64,000 nucleotides of DNA from Parvibaculaceae bacterium PLY_AMNH_Bact1. Its GTDB lineage: Bacteria > Pseudomonadota > Alphaproteobacteria > Parvibaculales > Parvibaculaceae. Below, one piece after another: positions 9,836-29,055 of this stretch. Positions within the stretch are counted from its first letter, which is position 1. Each line of letters begins with the position of its first letter. The notes under the pieces were generated by a model. It ran no database searches and was not told the DNA's origin. It worked only from the letters and a program-made list of their open reading frames with translations. Where the stretch lies: assembly GCA_032881465.1 (NCBI GenBank), contig CP126168.1, positions 1,922,001 to 1,986,000 of the forward strand, written 5' to 3'. A program made the translations under genes and the position numbers.

Positions 9836-10867
9836 GGCCGGTTCTGGCTGGGTGAGACGCCGAATGGCGCCTCCACCTATCGCAAGCACGGCTGTTGGGA
9901 CCTGCACAACTTTTCTGTCCGAAAACACAGCACCGATGATTGATGCTGCAACGGCATCGTTTGGGTCATCATATGCAGGCACGATCACCGCGCCATTTGC
10001 GACATAATAGTCCAAATAGTTCGATGCCAACGGCTTCCCATCAAAACCCACCTGCTTGTTCTGCGGCAACGGAACCGACGTGATCGTTAGCTTGTCGCCG
10101 CGTGCAGTGACGGCAGCATCCAAATGTGCCTTGTTGTCTTCCAGCGTCGCCCGGTCAAGGTCATCCGGATCTGACACATCGGAGACAAGCACTCGGTCTC
10201 GCCCGGCAAAAACCGCAACACGGCTAACTTGTCCCTGAGTAGGATCAGCGGCCAAGCCGCCACCAAGCCACACGACTTTCCTGGCGCCCAGGAACAAAGC
10301 CAGCCGCTCTTCGATTTCTGGACGAGTCAGTTCCGGATTGCGGTCTTCATTGAGGAGGCACTCTTCCGTCGCAAGCACGGTTCCGTACCCATCAGCGCTA
10401 ATAGCGCCCCCCTCCAAAACCATATCGGCCGTGAACATCTTCGTGTTTTCGTGCCGAAGGATTTTTTCCGCGAGCGCGGCGTCCTGAGCAAACCCATGGA
10501 CAGAATGTCCCCAGCCGTTGAACTGCCAAGCAATGCCCGCAATAGAATTCTCCCCGTTGCTCAGAAACATCGGCGCCGTATCCCGTGCCCAGCAATCGTC
10601 AATCGGAAGTTCAAGAAACTGAACATTTTTGTTTCGACCACAAGCGAAACGAGCCTGAGAGGCATCCTCTTCGCCGACGATCACCACCACAGGCTCATAG
10701 GCCGCAATGGTGCGAATAACCTCCGCGGCCTCTGTGTAAGCTTGAGGCATCAAATCTCGCCAGCGGTCAGCCCGTGAGGGCCATTGCACCCAGCACCTCG
10801 TGTGCGGCTCCCACTCTCCAGGCAGAAAAAACCCCTCACCCACCGGAGAGTGCAAATAATCGTCCAT
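9815..10867 (-). CDS. Agmatine deiminase-like protein lacking catalytic residues
   Basis: This 350-residue protein matches the agmatine deiminase (AguA/PAD_porph) family end to end. It has GEWEPHTRCWVQWPSR at the N terminus, DDCWARDTAPMF with the substrate Asp at 96, EGGAISADG, TEECLLNEDRNP and LASNYLDYYVANGAVIVP. The catalytic positions are changed, however. The conserved GHxD reads GQVS (Q213, S215). The His of EGGxIH is S157. The nucleophile in GGGxIHC reads GGGAIRR, with Arg337 in place of Cys. By family knowledge it cannot hydrolyse agmatine. The frame is intact and the gene is not visibly decaying, so it probably has another role, perhaps binding a guanidino or amine ligand. Confidence 0.8.
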   Translation of the reverse strand: MDDYLHSPVGEGFFLPGEWEPHTRCWVQWPSRADRWRDLMPQAYTEAAEVIRTIAAYEPVVVIVGEEDASQARFACGRNKNVQFLELPIDDCWARDTAPMFLSNGENSIAGIAWQFNGWGHSVHGFAQDAALAEKILRHENTKMFTADMVLEGGAISADGYGTVLATEECLLNEDRNPELTRPEIEERLALFLGARKVVWLGGGLAADPTQGQVSRVAVFAGRDRVLVSDVSDPDDLDRATLEDNKAHLDAAVTARGDKLTITSVPLPQNKQVGFDGKPLASNYLDYYVANGAVIVPAYDDPNDAVAASIIGAVFSDRKVVQVPTAVLAIGGGAIRRLTQPEPALPGSSS

Positions 10868-10957
10868 AAGGTCCCCTAATCTGACTCAAAACACTGCGCA
10901 GACACTCCATTGTGCCGTAAACTGCTAAGAAAGAAAAATCACTGACAGGATGTTGAA

Positions 10958-22010: not shown

Positions 22011-22844
22011 TTAAGCCTGCTGCTTCTGCTCTGGATGAAGGTCCGGCAGGTCCAGCGTCGCGATCAGCTGGCGTACTTCCGCCCGCGCCGCCACATGGGA
22101 CATGGACAACCCGCCACCGGCACCTTTTTCTCGAAGATCGAGCAGCGTCAGGCCCGACGGAAACATCTCCCGGAAGATCACACGCTCGCCAAATCCCGGT
22201 GCAATCCGAAACCCAATCCGGTCGCTCAACGCTTCAAGCCCGGCCTCTACCCGCCGTTTATTCTTCGCATCGAGCGACGACAGGCGGTTTCGCATCACGA
22301 CCCAGTCAATTGTACCGCCATCGGCAATTGCGCGGCGCTTACGTGCGTCCCACACCATTTCAGCGTAAAGGCTCGGACGTTTTACCTCATAGGTGTCTGG
22401 ATTGACCTGCGCCAACAAATCGAAGTCGACAAAACTATCATTCATCGGTGTGATGATCGTATCGGCAACGGCATGTCCAAGACGCGAAAGAAATGTGTCG
22501 CTCCCCGGACTGTCAATAACAATGACATCATTGGCAGCCGTCAGCGCCGCGTACACAGTCTCAAAGGCCTTACGTTCTTCTCGGTGTTGCTCAGTCAAGA
22601 CATCCGCGTCAGATCGGTCGACAACATGATGGTCCGGCATTGCCAACGGCACATCGTTTGCTTCGCTCCAGTTTCGCCGGTTTTCAACATATCGGGAAAG
22701 AGATCGCTGGCGACTGTCAAGGTCTATGGACCCAACCCGCAATCCTTCAGAAAGCAGTGACGCAATCACATGCATAGCTGAGGTGGTTTTGCCGGAGCCA
22801 CCCTTCTCGTTTCCAAGGACGATGGTATGTTTTTTGGCGAACAT
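22011..22844 (-). CDS. mipZ: Division-plane positioning ATPase MipZ
   Basis: This 277-residue ParA/MinD-superfamily ATPase has the deviant Walker A GNEKGGSGKTTSAMH (about residues 12-26). The MipZ-typical switch segment is IDLDSRQRSLSRYVENRRNW, and the Walker B region is VIVIDSPGSDTFLSRLGH. The C-terminal part is VMRNRLSSLDAKNKRRVEAGLEAL. MipZ forms gradients from ParB at the poles and blocks FtsZ assembly away from midcell in alphaproteobacteria. ATG 22844 matches the family start, and an upstream GTG at 22859 would add five residues. The gene is divergent from an exported SH3-domain gene. Confidence 0.95.
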   Translation of the reverse strand: MFAKKHTIVLGNEKGGSGKTTSAMHVIASLLSEGLRVGSIDLDSRQRSLSRYVENRRNWSEANDVPLAMPDHHVVDRSDADVLTEQHREERKAFETVYAALTAANDVIVIDSPGSDTFLSRLGHAVADTIITPMNDSFVDFDLLAQVNPDTYEVKRPSLYAEMVWDARKRRAIADGGTIDWVVMRNRLSSLDAKNKRRVEAGLEALSDRIGFRIAPGFGERVIFREMFPSGLTLLDLREKGAGGGLSMSHVAARAEVRQLIATLDLPDLHPEQKQQA

Positions 22845-23026
22845 CGCAGGCTTTGTCACAGTTGGTCATTCACGAACAGATAGAACGACTCAGAAGTCGA
22901 ATTTCGCGGAGTGTCTGCCCGCCACAACATCAAGTCAACCAGCCTCCGAGTGCTTCATTTCGGTATTTGTACCTGTTCCCCTTCAAGCATCATCGCTACA
23001 CTAGGAACAGCAAAAAAAGACGAGCT

Positions 23027-23704
23027 ATGAGGCCGAATATCTCCATCCGTCCCCACTATATTGACAAGCTTCCGGCGACCCTGGTCATCATGCTGAGTGT
23101 CAGCTGCTTACTCTTGTTTTTTGCCACCAATGCGCGCGCCGAAGTGACCTACGACGTCATAAATGTCGCCGCTAACGATCAATTGAATATTCGCGCTGAG
23201 CCATCAGCTACCGCCGAAATAACCGGAACCTTGAGCTTTGACGCCAAAGCAATCAAAACCACCGGAGTCGCCCGTCAGATAGGACGGGCAACCTGGGTTG
23301 AGATCATCCTTGAAGGTCGCAAAGGGTGGGTCAATGCGGCTTTCGTGACACCAACGCGCAGCCCCTCATCCCTGTTCCGAGAGCCTCTCGTGTGTAGCGG
23401 GACTGAGCCATTCTGGGCCCTGCAGCTGGACAATACCCGCGGTGACTTTGACTCTCTCGCTGAGGGAAAATCCGTCATCGATTTTCAAACATCCCGATCC
23501 GCCCACGGCGTGCCAATCATCTGGTCCCTGAAGGGCACCAACGGCCCCGCCCACTCGCCGGTTTTTGCACTTCTCGAAGAAACCAATCAATGTTCAGATG
23601 GCATGTCCGACCTTACCTACCGATATTCAATTCGCATCGATATCGAGGACGGCCCGTTCTATGCTGGCTGTTGCAACCCACATCCAGGGCAAACTGCCCC
23701 CTAA
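23027..23704 (+). CDS. Exported SH3b-domain / COG3650-like protein
   Basis: This 225-residue protein has a signal peptide (ATLVIMLSVSCLLLFFATNARA) and then a bacterial SH3 domain (about 40-110: NIRAEPSATAEITGTL ... WVEIILEGRKGWVNAAFV). The C-terminal domain opens with CSGTEPFWAL, the hallmark of COG3650 proteins that often accompany HslJ/META-like folds. It has several cysteines, including a CC pair near the end. It is presumably periplasmic and may bind the envelope. Its function is unknown. ATG 23027 follows the weak AGACGAGCT leader. Confidence 0.75.
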   Translation: MRPNISIRPHYIDKLPATLVIMLSVSCLLLFFATNARAEVTYDVINVAANDQLNIRAEPSATAEITGTLSFDAKAIKTTGVARQIGRATWVEIILEGRKGWVNAAFVTPTRSPSSLFREPLVCSGTEPFWALQLDNTRGDFDSLAEGKSVIDFQTSRSAHGVPIIWSLKGTNGPAHSPVFALLEETNQCSDGMSDLTYRYSIRIDIEDGPFYAGCCNPHPGQTAP

Positions 23705-23799: not shown

Positions 23800-25164
23800 A
23801 TGAACGGTAAGCTCGACCTTGATCAATTGACCAATCTTGTGACGTCAGGAGAAATAGACACCATTATCGTCTGCATGCCCGACATGCAGGGACGCCTGGT
23901 GGGTAAACGCGTAACAGGAGCCTTCTTCCTGGACAGCGTGGTTGAGGAAACCCATGCCTGCAATTATCTACTCACCGTAGACATGGATATGGAGCCGGTG
24001 CCTGGCTACAAAGCCGCCAGTTGGGAAAAAGGCTATGGCGACTTCACCCTGAAGCCGGATCTCGCAACATTACGCCGCATTCCCTGGTTGCCTGCCACAG
24101 CGCTCGTGATCTGCGACACCTTGGATCACCACGGAGAAGACATTCCCGTCTCCCCCCGCGCCATTCTCAAGAAACAGCTTAAGAGGTTGGCCGAGAAAGA
24201 CATGATGGCCTACATGGCCTCAGAGCTTGAGTTTTTTCTCTTTGATGAACCCTTCGAATCCGCCCACGAGAAGCACTACAAAGATCTGAAAACAGCCAGT
24301 TGGTACATCGAGGATTACCACATCTTCCAGACATCAAAGGAAGAAGGCATCATGCGCGCGATCCGAAATGGATTGGACGCCGCCGGCATTCCCGTCGAAA
24401 ACTCAAAAGGTGAATGGGGTCCGGGCCAGGAAGAAATCAATGTGCGCTATGCTGAAGCTCTCGACATGGCAGACCGGCACGTGATTTTGAAAAACGGCAT
24501 CAAAGAGATCGCCCATCTGCACGGCAAATCGGTGACTTTCATGGCCAAATGGAACCAGAAGCTCGCAGGAAACTCCTGCCATATCCATTGCTCCCTCTGG
24601 GACAAAGCAGGTCAGAACTCCGTGTTCCACGACAAGGCAGACACCTTGGGCATGTCTCCATTGTTTAAAAAATTCATCGCCGGGCAAATCTCCACGAGTC
24701 GTGAGATGAGCTATTTTCTCGCACCCGGCATAAACTCCTACAAACGGTTTGCGGATCAGTCATTCGCACCGACGACAGCGGTTTGGAGCATGGATAACAG
24801 AACAGCAGGATATAGAGTTGTGGGCAGCGGCAACGCGACAAGGGTCGAATGCCGCATCGGGGGCGCTGATCTAAACCCATATCTCGCCTTCGCTGGCATT
24901 ATCGGTGCCGGACTTCATGGCATTGAAAAGGACATGGAGCTGGAACCTGAATTCCAGGGTGATGCTTACGCCACTGAAGACATACGGTCCCTTCCCAAAT
25001 CGCTGAGGGAAGCTCTTGAGATTCTCGATAAATCAGAAACGATGCGCGCTGCCTTCGGGGACGATGTAATCGATCACTATCTTCACACAGGACATTGGGA
25101 ACAGGCGGAGTATGACCGCGCTGTCACCGACTGGGAATTGACAAGAGGTTTTGAACGCGGATGA
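23800..25164 (+). CDS. Glutamine-synthetase-family gamma-glutamylamide ligase
   Basis: This 454-residue member of the glutamine synthetase fold has metal and nucleotide residues in YMASELEFFLF, PGQEEINVRYAEA, GNSCHIHCSLWD, NSYKRF and RVECRIGGADLNPYLAF. It lacks the tyrosine adenylylation loop of GlnA. Relatives of this type ligate glutamate to amines (PuuA with putrescine, GlnA4 with ethanolamine, IpuC with isopropylamine) rather than making glutamine. The gene context, an aldehyde and an alcohol dehydrogenase coupled behind it, fits an amine or amino-alcohol substrate. GAAAGAGA lies before ATG 23800. Its stop overlaps the next start by 4 bp. Confidence 0.82.
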   Translation: MNGKLDLDQLTNLVTSGEIDTIIVCMPDMQGRLVGKRVTGAFFLDSVVEETHACNYLLTVDMDMEPVPGYKAASWEKGYGDFTLKPDLATLRRIPWLPATALVICDTLDHHGEDIPVSPRAILKKQLKRLAEKDMMAYMASELEFFLFDEPFESAHEKHYKDLKTASWYIEDYHIFQTSKEEGIMRAIRNGLDAAGIPVENSKGEWGPGQEEINVRYAEALDMADRHVILKNGIKEIAHLHGKSVTFMAKWNQKLAGNSCHIHCSLWDKAGQNSVFHDKADTLGMSPLFKKFIAGQISTSREMSYFLAPGINSYKRFADQSFAPTTAVWSMDNRTAGYRVVGSGNATRVECRIGGADLNPYLAFAGIIGAGLHGIEKDMELEPEFQGDAYATEDIRSLPKSLREALEILDKSETMRAAFGDDVIDHYLHTGHWEQAEYDRAVTDWELTRGFERG

Positions 25165-26552
25165 GCAACACGCTGAAACTCATTACACCAATTGACGGGT
25201 CTGTTTATGTAGAACGCCCCTATGCGACGGAAGCAGAAGTCGCAGCTGCTTTTGACCGCGCTAGTGAAGCGCAGGCAGCATGGAAACGCGTTCCCATCTC
25301 AGAACGCGCGAGCCTGATGACAAAATTCGTCGACGCCTTTGTTGCCATGAAGGACGAGATCGTGCCCGAATTGGCCTGGCAGATGGGCCGCCCCATTGCC
25401 TATGGCGGCAATGAGGTAAACGGCTTTGCAGATCGCGCACGCCACATGATCAAAATCGCGCCCGAATGCCTGGAACACGTCCGCCCTGACCCCATCGACG
25501 GGTTTGACCGCTACATCAAACGTGAACCCCTGGGCGTCGTCTTTGCCATCGCCGCCTGGAACTTCCCCTACATGATTGCGGTGAACTCCGTCGTCCCCGC
25601 CCTCATGGCAGGCAATACCGTTGTGTTGAAACACTCAGGACAAACGCCGCTCTGCGCAGAACGCATGGCCGAAGCCCTGGACAAAGCAGGTGCACCAGAC
25701 GGGCTTTTCCAGGTCCTGCACATGGGCCATGACCTGACCGAAAAAGCGATCCAGCACCCCGCCTGTGCCTATGTCAACTTCACAGGCTCCGTCGCCGGGG
25801 GCCATGCCATTCAGCGCGCCGCAGTCAACCGCTTCATTAATTTGGGCTTAGAACTGGGTGGCAAAGACCCCGCCTATGTTCGCGCCGATGCGGACATCGC
25901 CTTCGCTGTTGAAAACATCGTCGACGGCGCATTTTTCAATTCTGGCCAGTCCTGCTGTGGCAAAGAGCGTATCTATGTGGACGAAAGCGTCTATGACAGC
26001 TTTGTTGAGCAATTCGTCGAGACCGCCAAGGGCTACAAGCTTGGCAGTTCGCTTGACGCAGACACAACCATCGGCCCCATGGTGCGCACAAGTGCCGCAA
26101 CCTTCGTTCGCAGTCAGGTTGCCGATGCGGTGAGAGACGGGGCAAAATCGCTCATTCCTGAAAGCCACTTCCCAGAGTCGAAAGAAGGCACCCCCTATCT
26201 CGGACCCCAGGTTGTCATCGACGTCGACCATTCCATGAGCCTTATGAAGGATGAGACCTTCGGCCCCGCGGTCGGCATCATGAAAGTCTCAAGCGATGAA
26301 GATGCAGTCCGCCTGATGAATGACAGCCCCTATGGCCTCACAGGCTCCATCTGGACATCAGATGCAGAAGCCGCCGTTCATATTGGGGATCAGGTCGAAA
26401 CCGGCACCTGGTTCATGAACCGCTGTGATTACTTGGACCCTGCTCTTGCCTGGACAGCCGTGAAAGACAGCGGTCGCGGCGCGACGCTTTCTGCGGTGGG
26501 CTATGAGTTCCTCACGCGACCAAAGAGCTACCATCTCCGACTGAAGACCTGA
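25161..26552 (+). CDS. NAD(P)-dependent aldehyde dehydrogenase
   Basis: This 463-residue enzyme of the ALDH superfamily has AAWNFPYMIAVNSVVPAL with the catalytic Asn, VNFTGSVAGG for nucleotide binding, LELGGKDPAYV with the general-base Glu, and FFNSGQSCCGKERIYV with the nucleophile Cys followed by a second Cys. The C-terminal TFGPAVGIMKV is typical. It is coupled to the glutamine-synthetase-like gene by ATGA. It presumably oxidises the aldehyde made by the following alcohol dehydrogenase. The exact substrate is not given by sequence. Confidence 0.9.
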   Translation: MSNTLKLITPIDGSVYVERPYATEAEVAAAFDRASEAQAAWKRVPISERASLMTKFVDAFVAMKDEIVPELAWQMGRPIAYGGNEVNGFADRARHMIKIAPECLEHVRPDPIDGFDRYIKREPLGVVFAIAAWNFPYMIAVNSVVPALMAGNTVVLKHSGQTPLCAERMAEALDKAGAPDGLFQVLHMGHDLTEKAIQHPACAYVNFTGSVAGGHAIQRAAVNRFINLGLELGGKDPAYVRADADIAFAVENIVDGAFFNSGQSCCGKERIYVDESVYDSFVEQFVETAKGYKLGSSLDADTTIGPMVRTSAATFVRSQVADAVRDGAKSLIPESHFPESKEGTPYLGPQVVIDVDHSMSLMKDETFGPAVGIMKVSSDEDAVRLMNDSPYGLTGSIWTSDAEAAVHIGDQVETGTWFMNRCDYLDPALAWTAVKDSGRGATLSAVGYEFLTRPKSYHLRLKT

Positions 26553-26556
26553 GCCC

Positions 26557-27744
26557 ATGCCTGAGCCAAAAATCGACACCTATCAAAGCCTGATTGCCAA
26601 TTGGAGCTACCCGACTTCTATTCGGTTTGGCCCAGGACGTATCTCTGAACTTGCCAATGCCTGCCGCGGTGCAGGCATTCATGCCCCACTCCTCGTCACA
26701 GACCCGGGGCTGGCCACACTCCCGATTGTGACTGACGCACTCAATGCGCTTGAGGAAAATGGCCTCTCGACCGTCCTCTTTTCCAAACTGCAGGCAAACC
26801 CGGTTGCAGCCAACGTGGAAGAAGGCGTCGCCATCTATAAGCGCGGGCATCATGACGGTGTCATTGCCTTTGGTGGCGGCTCCGCCCTCGACACGGCGAA
26901 GGCCATCGCCTTCATGTCTGGACAGTCCCGCCCCATCTGGGACTTTGAGGACCGGGAAGACTGGTGGACAAGGGCCAACCCCGCAGGCATTGCCCCCATC
27001 ATTGCGGTGCCGACGACAGCAGGAACCGGCTCAGAAGTCGGACGCGCCGCCGTTATCACCGATGAAAGCGACCACACAAAGAAGGTCATCTTCCACCCGA
27101 AAATGCTGCCAGTGGAAGTCATTGCAGACCCGGCGCTAACAACTGGCCTGCCTGCGCCCATTACGGCGGCAACGGGCATGGATGCCCTCTCCCACGCGCT
27201 GGAAGCCTATTGCAGCCCCTTCTGGCACCCTATGGGCCAAGGCATCGCGCTCGAAGCCATGCGGCTCGTGAAAGAATGGCTGCCAGAGGCAACTGCCAAT
27301 GGGGAGAATGTCGACGCAAGGGCCTATATGATGGCAGCATCCTCCATGGGCGCCGTCGCATTTCAGAAAGGCCTCGGTGCCATGCACGCCATGAGCCACC
27401 CCTGTTCGAGCCTGAAAGGCACACATCACGGCCTCACCAATGCTGTGGTCATGCCCTACGTGCTGCATCACAATTTGAAGGTGATTGATGAGAAGCTTGC
27501 GGCGGCGGCCCGCTATCTAGGGCTTGGAGACAGTGCCGCCAGCTTCATTGACTGGGTCCTGCACTTACGTGAAGAGCTTCAAATCCCGAACACATTGCAC
27601 GATCTAGGCATCACCCAGGACCTCATCAGCCAAATGGCCCCCATGGCACTGGAAGACCCCTGCACGGGTGGTAATCCTGTCTCCATGACAACAGGTGCCT
27701 ACGAAAGCCTCTACGACAAAGCCATCAACGGCACCCTCGGTTAA
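26557..27744 (+). CDS. Iron-containing (group III) alcohol dehydrogenase
   Basis: This 395-residue protein has GGGSALDTAKAIAF for NAD binding and PTTAGTGSEVGRAAVI. The four metal ligands are Asp and His in GMDALSHALEAY, His in GAMHAMSHP, and His in THHGLTNA. All are intact. The family oxidises or reduces alcohols such as butanol, propanediol or amino alcohols. It starts 4 bp after the aldehyde dehydrogenase and ends 4 bp before panC, so the four genes form one unit. Confidence 0.9.
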   Translation: MPEPKIDTYQSLIANWSYPTSIRFGPGRISELANACRGAGIHAPLLVTDPGLATLPIVTDALNALEENGLSTVLFSKLQANPVAANVEEGVAIYKRGHHDGVIAFGGGSALDTAKAIAFMSGQSRPIWDFEDREDWWTRANPAGIAPIIAVPTTAGTGSEVGRAAVITDESDHTKKVIFHPKMLPVEVIADPALTTGLPAPITAATGMDALSHALEAYCSPFWHPMGQGIALEAMRLVKEWLPEATANGENVDARAYMMAASSMGAVAFQKGLGAMHAMSHPCSSLKGTHHGLTNAVVMPYVLHHNLKVIDEKLAAAARYLGLGDSAASFIDWVLHLREELQIPNTLHDLGITQDLISQMAPMALEDPCTGGNPVSMTTGAYESLYDKAINGTLG

Positions 27745-27748
27745 CACC

Positions 27749-28624
27749 ATGCCCATCGACACGACCACATATGCGGTGCCGCTCGCCCGCACCATTTCCG
27801 ACATGCGCGAACAAGTAGCCACCTGGCGCGCAGCAGGTGAAAAAATCGCGCTCGTGCCCACAATGGGTGCCCTGCATGAAGGTCATCTGTCACTTATCGA
27901 TGTTGCTAAGGCTCATGGCGCGACCAAAGCCATCGTCTCTATTTTCGTGAACCCCACACAGTTCGGCCCACGAGAAGATTTCGACGCCTATCCCCGCACG
28001 GAAGCAACCGATGCAGAAAAGCTGGTGAACCGTGCCGACCTCATCTTCGCCCCCAATGGTGCAGAGATGTATCCGGACGGCTACGGCACAACCGTCTCGG
28101 TCAAAGGCGTCACCAACACGCTTGAGGGCGAAGCCCGCCCCACGCACTTTGACGGCGTCGCAACTGTAGTGAGCAAGCTCCTGCTCGCGGCCCTGCCCGA
28201 CTGCGCGGTCTTTGGGGAGAAAGACTATCAGCAGCTCCTCACCATCCGCCGCATGGTGACGGACTTGCGCATCCCGGTTGAGATATTGGGCGGTCCCATT
28301 CTGCGAGAGCCCGACGGCCTCGCCATGTCATCCCGCAATGTCTATTTGACAGAGATAGAACGCAAAGCCGCCGGTCAGTTAAATGTGATCTTGAAGGAAA
28401 CAGCAGACGCGATAAGCAATGGCGGGAACATTCAAACGCTAACGAAAAACGCTGAAGCGAAACTCTTGGAGCTCGGTTTCGACAAGATCGACTACCTGAC
28501 AGTCCGTGACACCAGAACGCTTCAGCCTGTTGAGCAACTAACTGAAGAAGCCCGCATTCTCGTCGCAGCTAAAATCGGCCAGCCCCGTTTGCTGGACAAT
28601 ATCGCTGTTGAGTTCAGGGATTAA
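27749..28624 (+). CDS. panC: Pantothenate synthetase
   Basis: This 291-residue enzyme joins pantoate and beta-alanine with ATP. The HxGH motif is in TMGALHEGHLSLI (about residues 37-49). SIFVNPTQFGPREDFDAYPR, VFGEKDYQQL and the KMSKS-like LAMSSRNVYL are all present. ATG 27749 is four bases after the alcohol dehydrogenase stop. No panB or panD is in the window. Being last in an operon with an amine ligase and two dehydrogenases is unusual and may reflect beta-alanine supply. Confidence 0.95.
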   Translation: MPIDTTTYAVPLARTISDMREQVATWRAAGEKIALVPTMGALHEGHLSLIDVAKAHGATKAIVSIFVNPTQFGPREDFDAYPRTEATDAEKLVNRADLIFAPNGAEMYPDGYGTTVSVKGVTNTLEGEARPTHFDGVATVVSKLLLAALPDCAVFGEKDYQQLLTIRRMVTDLRIPVEILGGPILREPDGLAMSSRNVYLTEIERKAAGQLNVILKETADAISNGGNIQTLTKNAEAKLLELGFDKIDYLTVRDTRTLQPVEQLTEEARILVAAKIGQPRLLDNIAVEFRD

Positions 28625-29055
28625 AGCAGCCCCAGCTCACGCAAATCTTCGCGCATCTCCGCAGGCATATCGTCTTCACCCTCAACGGCGCGGGCATCTC
28701 GCGGGGCGTTCTCGGGCTCGAGATAACGCCATCCCTGGAAAGGTCGTTTGGCAAGCCGTTCTGTCATTATGAGTTCGGGATCCAGCACAAGCCCGCAATG
28801 CTTCTTGCCCTCATCATCCACGAGGGGTTTGAGCTCAAGCACTTTCTGGCGACAGCGCACCACGCCCTTCATGACCCAATAGATCGATCCGCCATCAGTG
28901 AGTTCGTCCGCGCGCTTCGGCGTCATGCGGGTGACGTGCATCACCTCTACCGGCTGACCGGCCTTTTTCTTTTGCGCCAAGCGCATGGCCTGATAGTCCC
29001 GGAGCGTTTCCGGATCTTCCACGCCAACACAGAGCTTGATGAGGTGAACAGTCAC
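28621..29055 (-). CDS. DUF1489 family protein
   Basis: This 144-residue protein with HLIKLCVGVEDPETLRDYQ at the N terminus and PKRADELTDGGSIYWVMKGVV matches the DUF1489 family. The family is nearly confined to alphaproteobacteria and has no known function. The C-terminal RPFQGWRYLEPENAPRD is conserved. It overlaps the end of panC by 4 bp in convergent orientation and lies 8 bp after the carboxylase subunit, so it may be the tail of that transcript. Confidence 0.85.
   Translation of the reverse strand: MTVHLIKLCVGVEDPETLRDYQAMRLAQKKKAGQPVEVMHVTRMTPKRADELTDGGSIYWVMKGVVRCRQKVLELKPLVDDEGKKHCGLVLDPELIMTERLAKRPFQGWRYLEPENAPRDARAVEGEDDMPAEMREDLRELGLL

Follow-up and report, generated by a model that had tools for sequence, protein, structure and literature searches.

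We found in the Parvibaculaceae bacterium PLY_AMNH_Bact1 a cassette of three genes, for a glutamine-synthetase-like ligase, an aldehyde dehydrogenase (ALDH) and an iron alcohol dehydrogenase (ADH), that very probably forms the soluble core of gamma-glutamyl ethanolamine catabolism, its link to the following panC gene being most likely one of position and not of a shared metabolite. The cassette lies in a stretch of 64,000 nucleotides (the window; contig CP126168.1, positions 1,922,001 to 1,986,000). On its plus strand follow the ligase, a probable gamma-glutamylethanolamide synthetase of the ETAGA type (23800..25164; ATG start, 454 aa), the ALDH, a probable gamma-glutamylacetaldehyde-amide dehydrogenase (25161..26552; 463 aa), the ADH, a probable gamma-glutamylethanolamide dehydrogenase (26557..27744; 395 aa), and panC, encoding pantoate--beta-alanine ligase, a neighbour probably outside the pathway (27749..28624; ATG start, 291 aa). 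The initial annotation had placed these four genes here with gaps of -4, +4 and +4 bp, which we confirm, and had proposed either that they degrade an amino alcohol, for example ethanolamine, or that they supply PanC with beta-alanine, which would make panD dispensable. Orthology, gene order and transporters of the ethanolamine type lend good support to the first proposal. In profile scans, the ALDH matches Aldedh at 415 bits, the ADH matches both Fe-ADH domains and PanC exceeds the TIGR00018 cut-off (285.1 versus 212.75 bits); motif blocks, which we take to be catalytic, were located in all three proteins.

In the proposed pathway, ethanolamine would enter through a separate tripartite ATP-independent periplasmic (TRAP) transporter of the EtoVWX type, and the ligase would couple it to glutamate with ATP to give gamma-glutamylethanolamide. 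The ADH would convert the alcohol of this amide to the aldehyde, the ALDH would convert the aldehyde to gamma-glutamylglycine, and a hydrolase encoded elsewhere would release glycine and glutamate. Ethanolamine is a common component of membrane lipids, and the Parvibaculaceae would join the bacteria that probably recycle this lipid head group.

The window ligase matches the catalytic domain of glutamine synthetase (Pfam Gln-synt_C) at 335 bits and stays far under the cut-offs of the GlnA model TIGR00653 (231.6 versus 429.15 bits), the NCBIfam model for type III glutamate-ammonia ligase (252.3 versus 470) and the PuuA gamma-glutamylputrescine synthetase model NF045547 (218.7 versus 650 bits). 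In a phmmer search against solved structures, two entries stand apart, 11zs from Brucella melitensis (616 bits) and 5dm3, by its title Csal_0679 of Chromohalobacter salexigens (523 bits), while all others score at most 160.4 bits; Csal_0679 is 53% identical to the window ligase. The predicted ligase model (mean predicted local distance difference test score 85.3) superposes on 5dm3 with Z 50.7 (1.5 Å, 373 residues) and on 11zs with Z 49.7 (1.8 Å, 420 residues). The fold alone is not decisive, because true glutamine synthetases match the model from Z 46 downward. A true ammonia-using glutamine synthetase that shares an operon with two dehydrogenases by chance is nevertheless hardly conceivable: it would fit the fold, with many true enzymes at Z 40-46, and the titles of 11zs and 5dm3, which say just glutamine synthetase, but neither the GlnA nor the type III cut-off is reached, the triad of genes is conserved, and by hand alignment Val67 stands at the place of Asp50, an ammonium-site residue of GlnA.

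The ligase tree comprises 102 rows, two of which are outgroup paralogues; like the species and ALDH trees, it is a quick IQ-TREE search with support from the Shimodaira-Hasegawa-like approximate likelihood ratio test (SH-aLRT) only. The 31 panC-side ligases of the Parvibaculaceae form a single clade (SH-aLRT 96). Its sister (SH-aLRT 100) has 11 rows: 11zs, the Paraburkholderia ligase of locus L147, whose grouping with 11zs is possibly due to long branches, and a subclade of nine (99) that contains Csal_0679, ligases from plasmid triads of Sinorhizobium, Rhizobium, Paracoccus, Aminobacter and Ruegeria, and separate copies from two family members, G006 and G009.

The orthology extends to the dehydrogenases. 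The window ALDH is 55% identical to the ALDHs of the Sinorhizobium and Ruegeria triads, and the ADHs of the window and of the Sinorhizobium triad share 58% identity; in the ALDH tree, 18 panC-side ALDHs group together (98, including the duplicate L065), separate from those of the triads. A ligase-ALDH-ADH triad without panC, which the initial annotation had set against the supply of beta-alanine, is found at six other named loci (two with a different gene order) and in six of the eight plasmid regions opened. Downstream of two of these six plasmid triads are bhc genes, annotated for glyoxylate/glycolate catabolism. The genus of the window itself has a member with a divided pathway, G006, in which only an ADH (80% identity) adjoins panC, the ligase and ALDH being missing at that place. 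The order EtoW-EtoX-ligase-ALDH is found elsewhere on the same contig (C33; loci L122 and L128), with no ADH in a stretch of 16 kb. This genome, whose assembly is listed as 9% contaminated, splits the genes over two sites; the simplest reading is that the panC-side ADH serves the ethanolamine pathway.

The transporter genes are in the same genome as the cassette but unlinked to it. EtoX lies at G000:C1:224396-225421, with EtoW and EtoV adjoining, 1.7 Mb from the cassette; it is 76% (blastp) to 78% identical and reaches 613 bits against the structures 4uab and 4xf5, which we take to be Csal_0678 with ethanolamine. We predict from these sequences that the EtoVWX-type genes encode an ethanolamine transporter. 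At E-value cut-offs of 1e-60, 1e-40 and 1e-100, the 30 genomes with a panC-side cassette divide into 22 with EtoX alone (in G021 as two fragments), six with a ligase-adjacent permease alone, two with neither and none with both. Directly before the ligase, four of the six (G014, G017, G019 and G031) have a permease with 75-78% identity to that of the Sinorhizobium triad, and two (G025 and G028) have one whose closest family is the ethanolamine permease TIGR00908. With these cut-offs, the search of the 40 family genomes gave no further copy of either permease type. Counted by genome, the mutual exclusion of EtoX and permease is conspicuous (Fisher p 5e-5). In the Parvibaculaceae, the transporter appears to be decoupled from the enzymes and exchanged among three kinds. 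Ligases with Trp or Phe at the position discussed below are also found near EtoX, within 6 kb at locus L052 and about 2.3 kb upstream at L053 (Phe). Ethanolamine-permease-like genes adjoin Trp-type ligases in 11 of the 66 named loci, a tally in which L051 and L052 supplied the queries and the other nine were recognised by similarity alone (34-49%, one a weak partial match). The permeases of L051 and L052 have TIGR00908 as their best family, at 373.6 and 358.7 bits versus the cut-off of 381.75.

The hydrolase that would close the pathway is absent from the window, as the initial annotation said, but the family to be expected is N-formylglutamate amidohydrolase (FGase) and not the PuuD type named there. 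A gene annotated as FGase is found just upstream in five of the six plasmid triads, and also at the related locus L152. The family has been proposed for the Streptomyces route in the available text of a study of that genus (PMC6529630). In the genome of the window, two FGases exceed the cut-off, at 2.745 and 2.788 Mb, both far from the cassette. The one at 2.745 Mb has 34-36% identity to the triad FGases and adjoins a carboxylate-amine ligase of the YbdK type. Its score class, defined by E-value only, is found in all family genomes at least 90% complete except the cassette-less G020 and G027, and is present in the cassette-less G007. This FGase-YbdK pair (G000:C1, about 2743490-2745680; L215) is a candidate for the closing hydrolase or may be a separate gamma-glutamyl system. 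We rejected PuuD (C26) as the closing enzyme: the strongest C26 match in the genome adjoins another ligase at 3.56 Mb. At that locus (G000:C1:3562348-3564530; L216), a PuuD-like hydrolase under the NCBIfam cut-off stands beside a second glutamine-synthetase-like ligase, with an apparent aminotransferase (by eye) about 3 kb on; this is perhaps the putrescine route of the genome.

Several observations weigh against the ethanolamine assignment. The first is a residue of the ligase itself. Trp206 follows Lys-Gly-Glu (KGEW; codon 24415-24417) in the window ligase, next to Glu205, which by hand alignment we take to be a metal ligand. Trp is found here in all 31 panC-side rows, in 11zs and in most other ligases, while 5dm3 and eight rows of the triads and their relatives have Ala (KGEA). 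Because of this Trp, the window ligase is placed as a sister outside the Ala-type subclade; Ala after KGE is a marker devised in this analysis and not a published criterion. To this are added the plain titles of the two closest structures, and the literature searched turned up no assayed enzyme of the panC-side clade. The cassette has neither a transporter nor an RpiR-type regulator nor a hydrolase linked to it in the window. Two cassette-bearing genomes, G008 and G012, yielded neither EtoX nor a linked permease, and the two TIGR00908-like permeases of the family are under the cut-off (352 and 347 versus 381.75). About two changes on the tree suffice for the alternation of EtoX and permease, and an independent-pair test cannot attain significance. 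The ADH of G017 (L114) is split in two frames, by sequencing error or decay. The loss of panD in most Parvibaculum genomes, described below, is also in this list.

The Trp, together with the use of this ligase fold for many amines, could point to a gamma-glutamyl route that degrades a different small amine or amino alcohol, such as isopropylamine or alaninol as in the Ipu pathway, or putrescine. We consider this unlikely. The gamma-glutamylputrescine model is missed by a wide margin, the genome has another ligase beside the PuuD-like hydrolase at 3.56 Mb, the ALDH and ADH together point to an alcohol, and transporters of the ethanolamine kind are present. Ethanolamine catabolism remains the preferred assignment.

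The neighbourhood of panC can be described from its edges. On the left, mipZ (22011..22859, minus strand; MipZ Pfam 374.8 bits and synteny) marks the boundary of the neighbourhood as it is seen without the cassette, and it is followed by a gene for an SH3-domain protein (SH3_3; 22853..23704, plus strand; the true start is probably later). On the right is a DUF1489 gene (28621..29055, minus strand; DUF1489 match and synteny). The cassette adjoins panC in 30 of 37 family genomes (26 on a single contig, four spanning a contig break). Many of the 66 named loci stop within 10 kb of the ligase, and panC is found near the ligase in six of them, all Parvibaculaceae. The order, whose conservation the initial annotation had suggested checking, is kept in relatives, but was seen only within this family.

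In the cassette-less family members G007, G020, G027 and G009, the first gene recognised next to panC is mipZ, although in G009 an SH3 gene separates the two. The SH3-like gene is also found in G001-G006, G008, G009 and G012, among them the cassette-less G009 and the reduced G006. Four of the 11 panC loci from other families have a partial neighbourhood: mipZ in L135 and L138, and DacA/DnaJ with DUF1489 in L130 and L132. Taken with the cassette-less relatives, these loci show that several lineages have panC next to mipZ and no cassette between them; the cassette occupies a mipZ-panC interval that is empty of it in relatives, and it may have come in with the family ancestor or earlier. We consider it most likely that the coupling to panC is positional. 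Searches of the literature on the cassette or on a link between panC and ethanolamine turned up no paper on a panC link. A tight and conserved neighbourhood can mimic a shared pathway, and a shared address is here more likely.

The spacing between ADH and panC in the genus of the window (G000-G006) is 4, 4, 4, 4, 7, 16 and 8 bp, the last without ligase and ALDH at that place. Nine other genomes have spacings of about -44 to +104 bp, and the remainder of about 390 to 450 bp, the distance in G017 being spoiled by the frame break in its ADH. By a motif test, a small minus-strand open reading frame (ORF) occupies the gap in 14 of the 22 Parvibaculum cassettes, including that of G017. Because of this ORF, co-transcription of cassette and panC cannot be general. 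It is plausible in the genus of the window, where the packing is tight enough that panC may lie on the cassette transcript, itself a matter of position. In L112, the small minus-strand ORF (10510-10890) has repeated PGH motifs. A gamma-glutamyl cyclotransferase or panD as the gap gene was rejected, the ORF being on the minus strand where it was inspected and its L112 copy, the one scanned, having no NCBIfam match. A different arrangement is seen in G053, a member of another family: its locus L138 (6869-10845) has mipZ, a short-chain dehydrogenase, an ALDH and then panC without a gap. This ALDH is 57% identical to that of the window, and the pair of dehydrogenases is reminiscent of the Streptomyces glnA4 cluster. 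The sole match to the window ligase in the G053 genome is weak (E 1e-25).

We then considered the beta-alanine proposal, in which the cassette would supply PanC with beta-alanine from a C3 amino alcohol, for example 3-aminopropanol, protected as the gamma-glutamyl amide. It is not supported in the genome of the window: an intact panD frame is present there and throughout the genus, and the cassette occurs without panC elsewhere, which answers to two of the three refuting outcomes named in the initial annotation. Among the 40 family genomes, panD is found in 15: seven of seven in the genus of the window, both members of g3, G009, and five of 27 Parvibaculum. Of the 27 Parvibaculum genomes, 22 lack it (14 of 19 if only those with a completeness of 90% or more are counted), among them most of those that carry the cassette, and panC is kept. 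Besides this loss and the frequent adjacency of cassette and panC, the proposal could draw on the two cassette-less Parvibaculum, G020 and G027, which both retain panD, on a D-hydantoinase match over the cut-off in only three of the 40 genomes, and on the window-like ALDH directly before panC in G053.

A table of 35 genomes counts 19 with the cassette and no panD, 11 with both, four with panD only and one with neither; its tree was rooted on G007 by choice and covers the family apart from G011, G013 and G061-G063 (incomplete or not fetched). We do not count the raw table as evidence, because in the independent-pair test the cassette differs in at most one of four pairs, that one in the direction of beta-alanine. 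Moreover, G007 has neither panD nor cassette and G016, G019 and G025 have both, panC stands beside mipZ without the cassette in four relatives, the cassette is accompanied by ethanolamine-type transporters, and the minus-strand ORF intervenes before panC in most Parvibaculum cassettes. Overall, we regard a supply of beta-alanine by the cassette as improbable; a small chance is left to such a role in the panD-less Parvibaculum, and none in the genome of the window. In those Parvibaculum, with ethanolamine as the older substrate, a cassette of relaxed specificity might also accept gamma-glutamyl-3-aminopropanol (or a related C3 amine), oxidise it to gamma-glutamyl-beta-alanine and so permit the loss of panD, an idea to which we give little credence. 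If true, it would be a so far unknown source of beta-alanine in these bacteria. Pyridoxal decarboxylases (PF00282) were rejected as a substitute for panD, since they are matched in 35 of the 40 genomes whether panD is present or not. A published table lists for P. lavamentivorans no panD, PYD2 or PYD3, two AAM transaminases and one GAD, as far as that entry goes (PMC7142369).

Several known systems resemble the cassette of the window. The PuuA/PuuC/PuuD system presumably shares its logic of glutamylation, oxidation and hydrolysis, but the window ligase is far under the PuuA family cut-off and the window has no PuuD-like gene. The IpuC pathway for isopropylamine, compared by description only, likewise combines a ligase with alcohol and aldehyde dehydrogenases. 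Compared likewise by description, the cluster of GlnA4 (SCO1613) in Streptomyces coelicolor encodes a dehydrogenase and an ALDH alongside a glutamine-synthetase-like ligase, and gamma-glutamylglycine is proposed there in the available text (PMC6529630); its dehydrogenase is of the short-chain type, whereas that of the window is an iron ADH. In the available text of the same study, the pathway of C. salexigens is described as predicted in silico (PMC6529630). The closest counterpart is in Phaeobacter MED193, for which the available text of PMC10132767 describes proteins that rise on phosphorylethanolamine and come from one operon. In locus-tag order (MED193_10046/10051/10056), these are ethanolamine gamma-glutamylase, gamma-glutamylacetaldehyde-amide dehydrogenase and gamma-glutamylethanolamide dehydrogenase (ETAGA-GAADDH-GETADH), and the operon also contains the TRAP transporter EtoVWX and a gamma-glutamylglycine amidohydrolase (GGAH). 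The binding of ethanolamine by the Phaeobacter EtoX was measured (7.9 uM), and the authors regard the MED193 genes as closely related to ones demonstrated in C. salexigens and A. tumefaciens (PMC10132767). The cassette of the window differs from this operon in its unlinked transporter, in having no adjacent regulator or hydrolase and in its place between mipZ and panC, and it differs from the gamma-glutamyl ethanolamine pathway in the Trp, not Ala, of its ligase. The likeness to Phaeobacter is one of gene order: the window has the same succession of ligase, ALDH and ADH, and EtoVWX-type genes are in its genome. The kind of pathway is known already; its location is new, and here the transporter is uncoupled from the enzymes.

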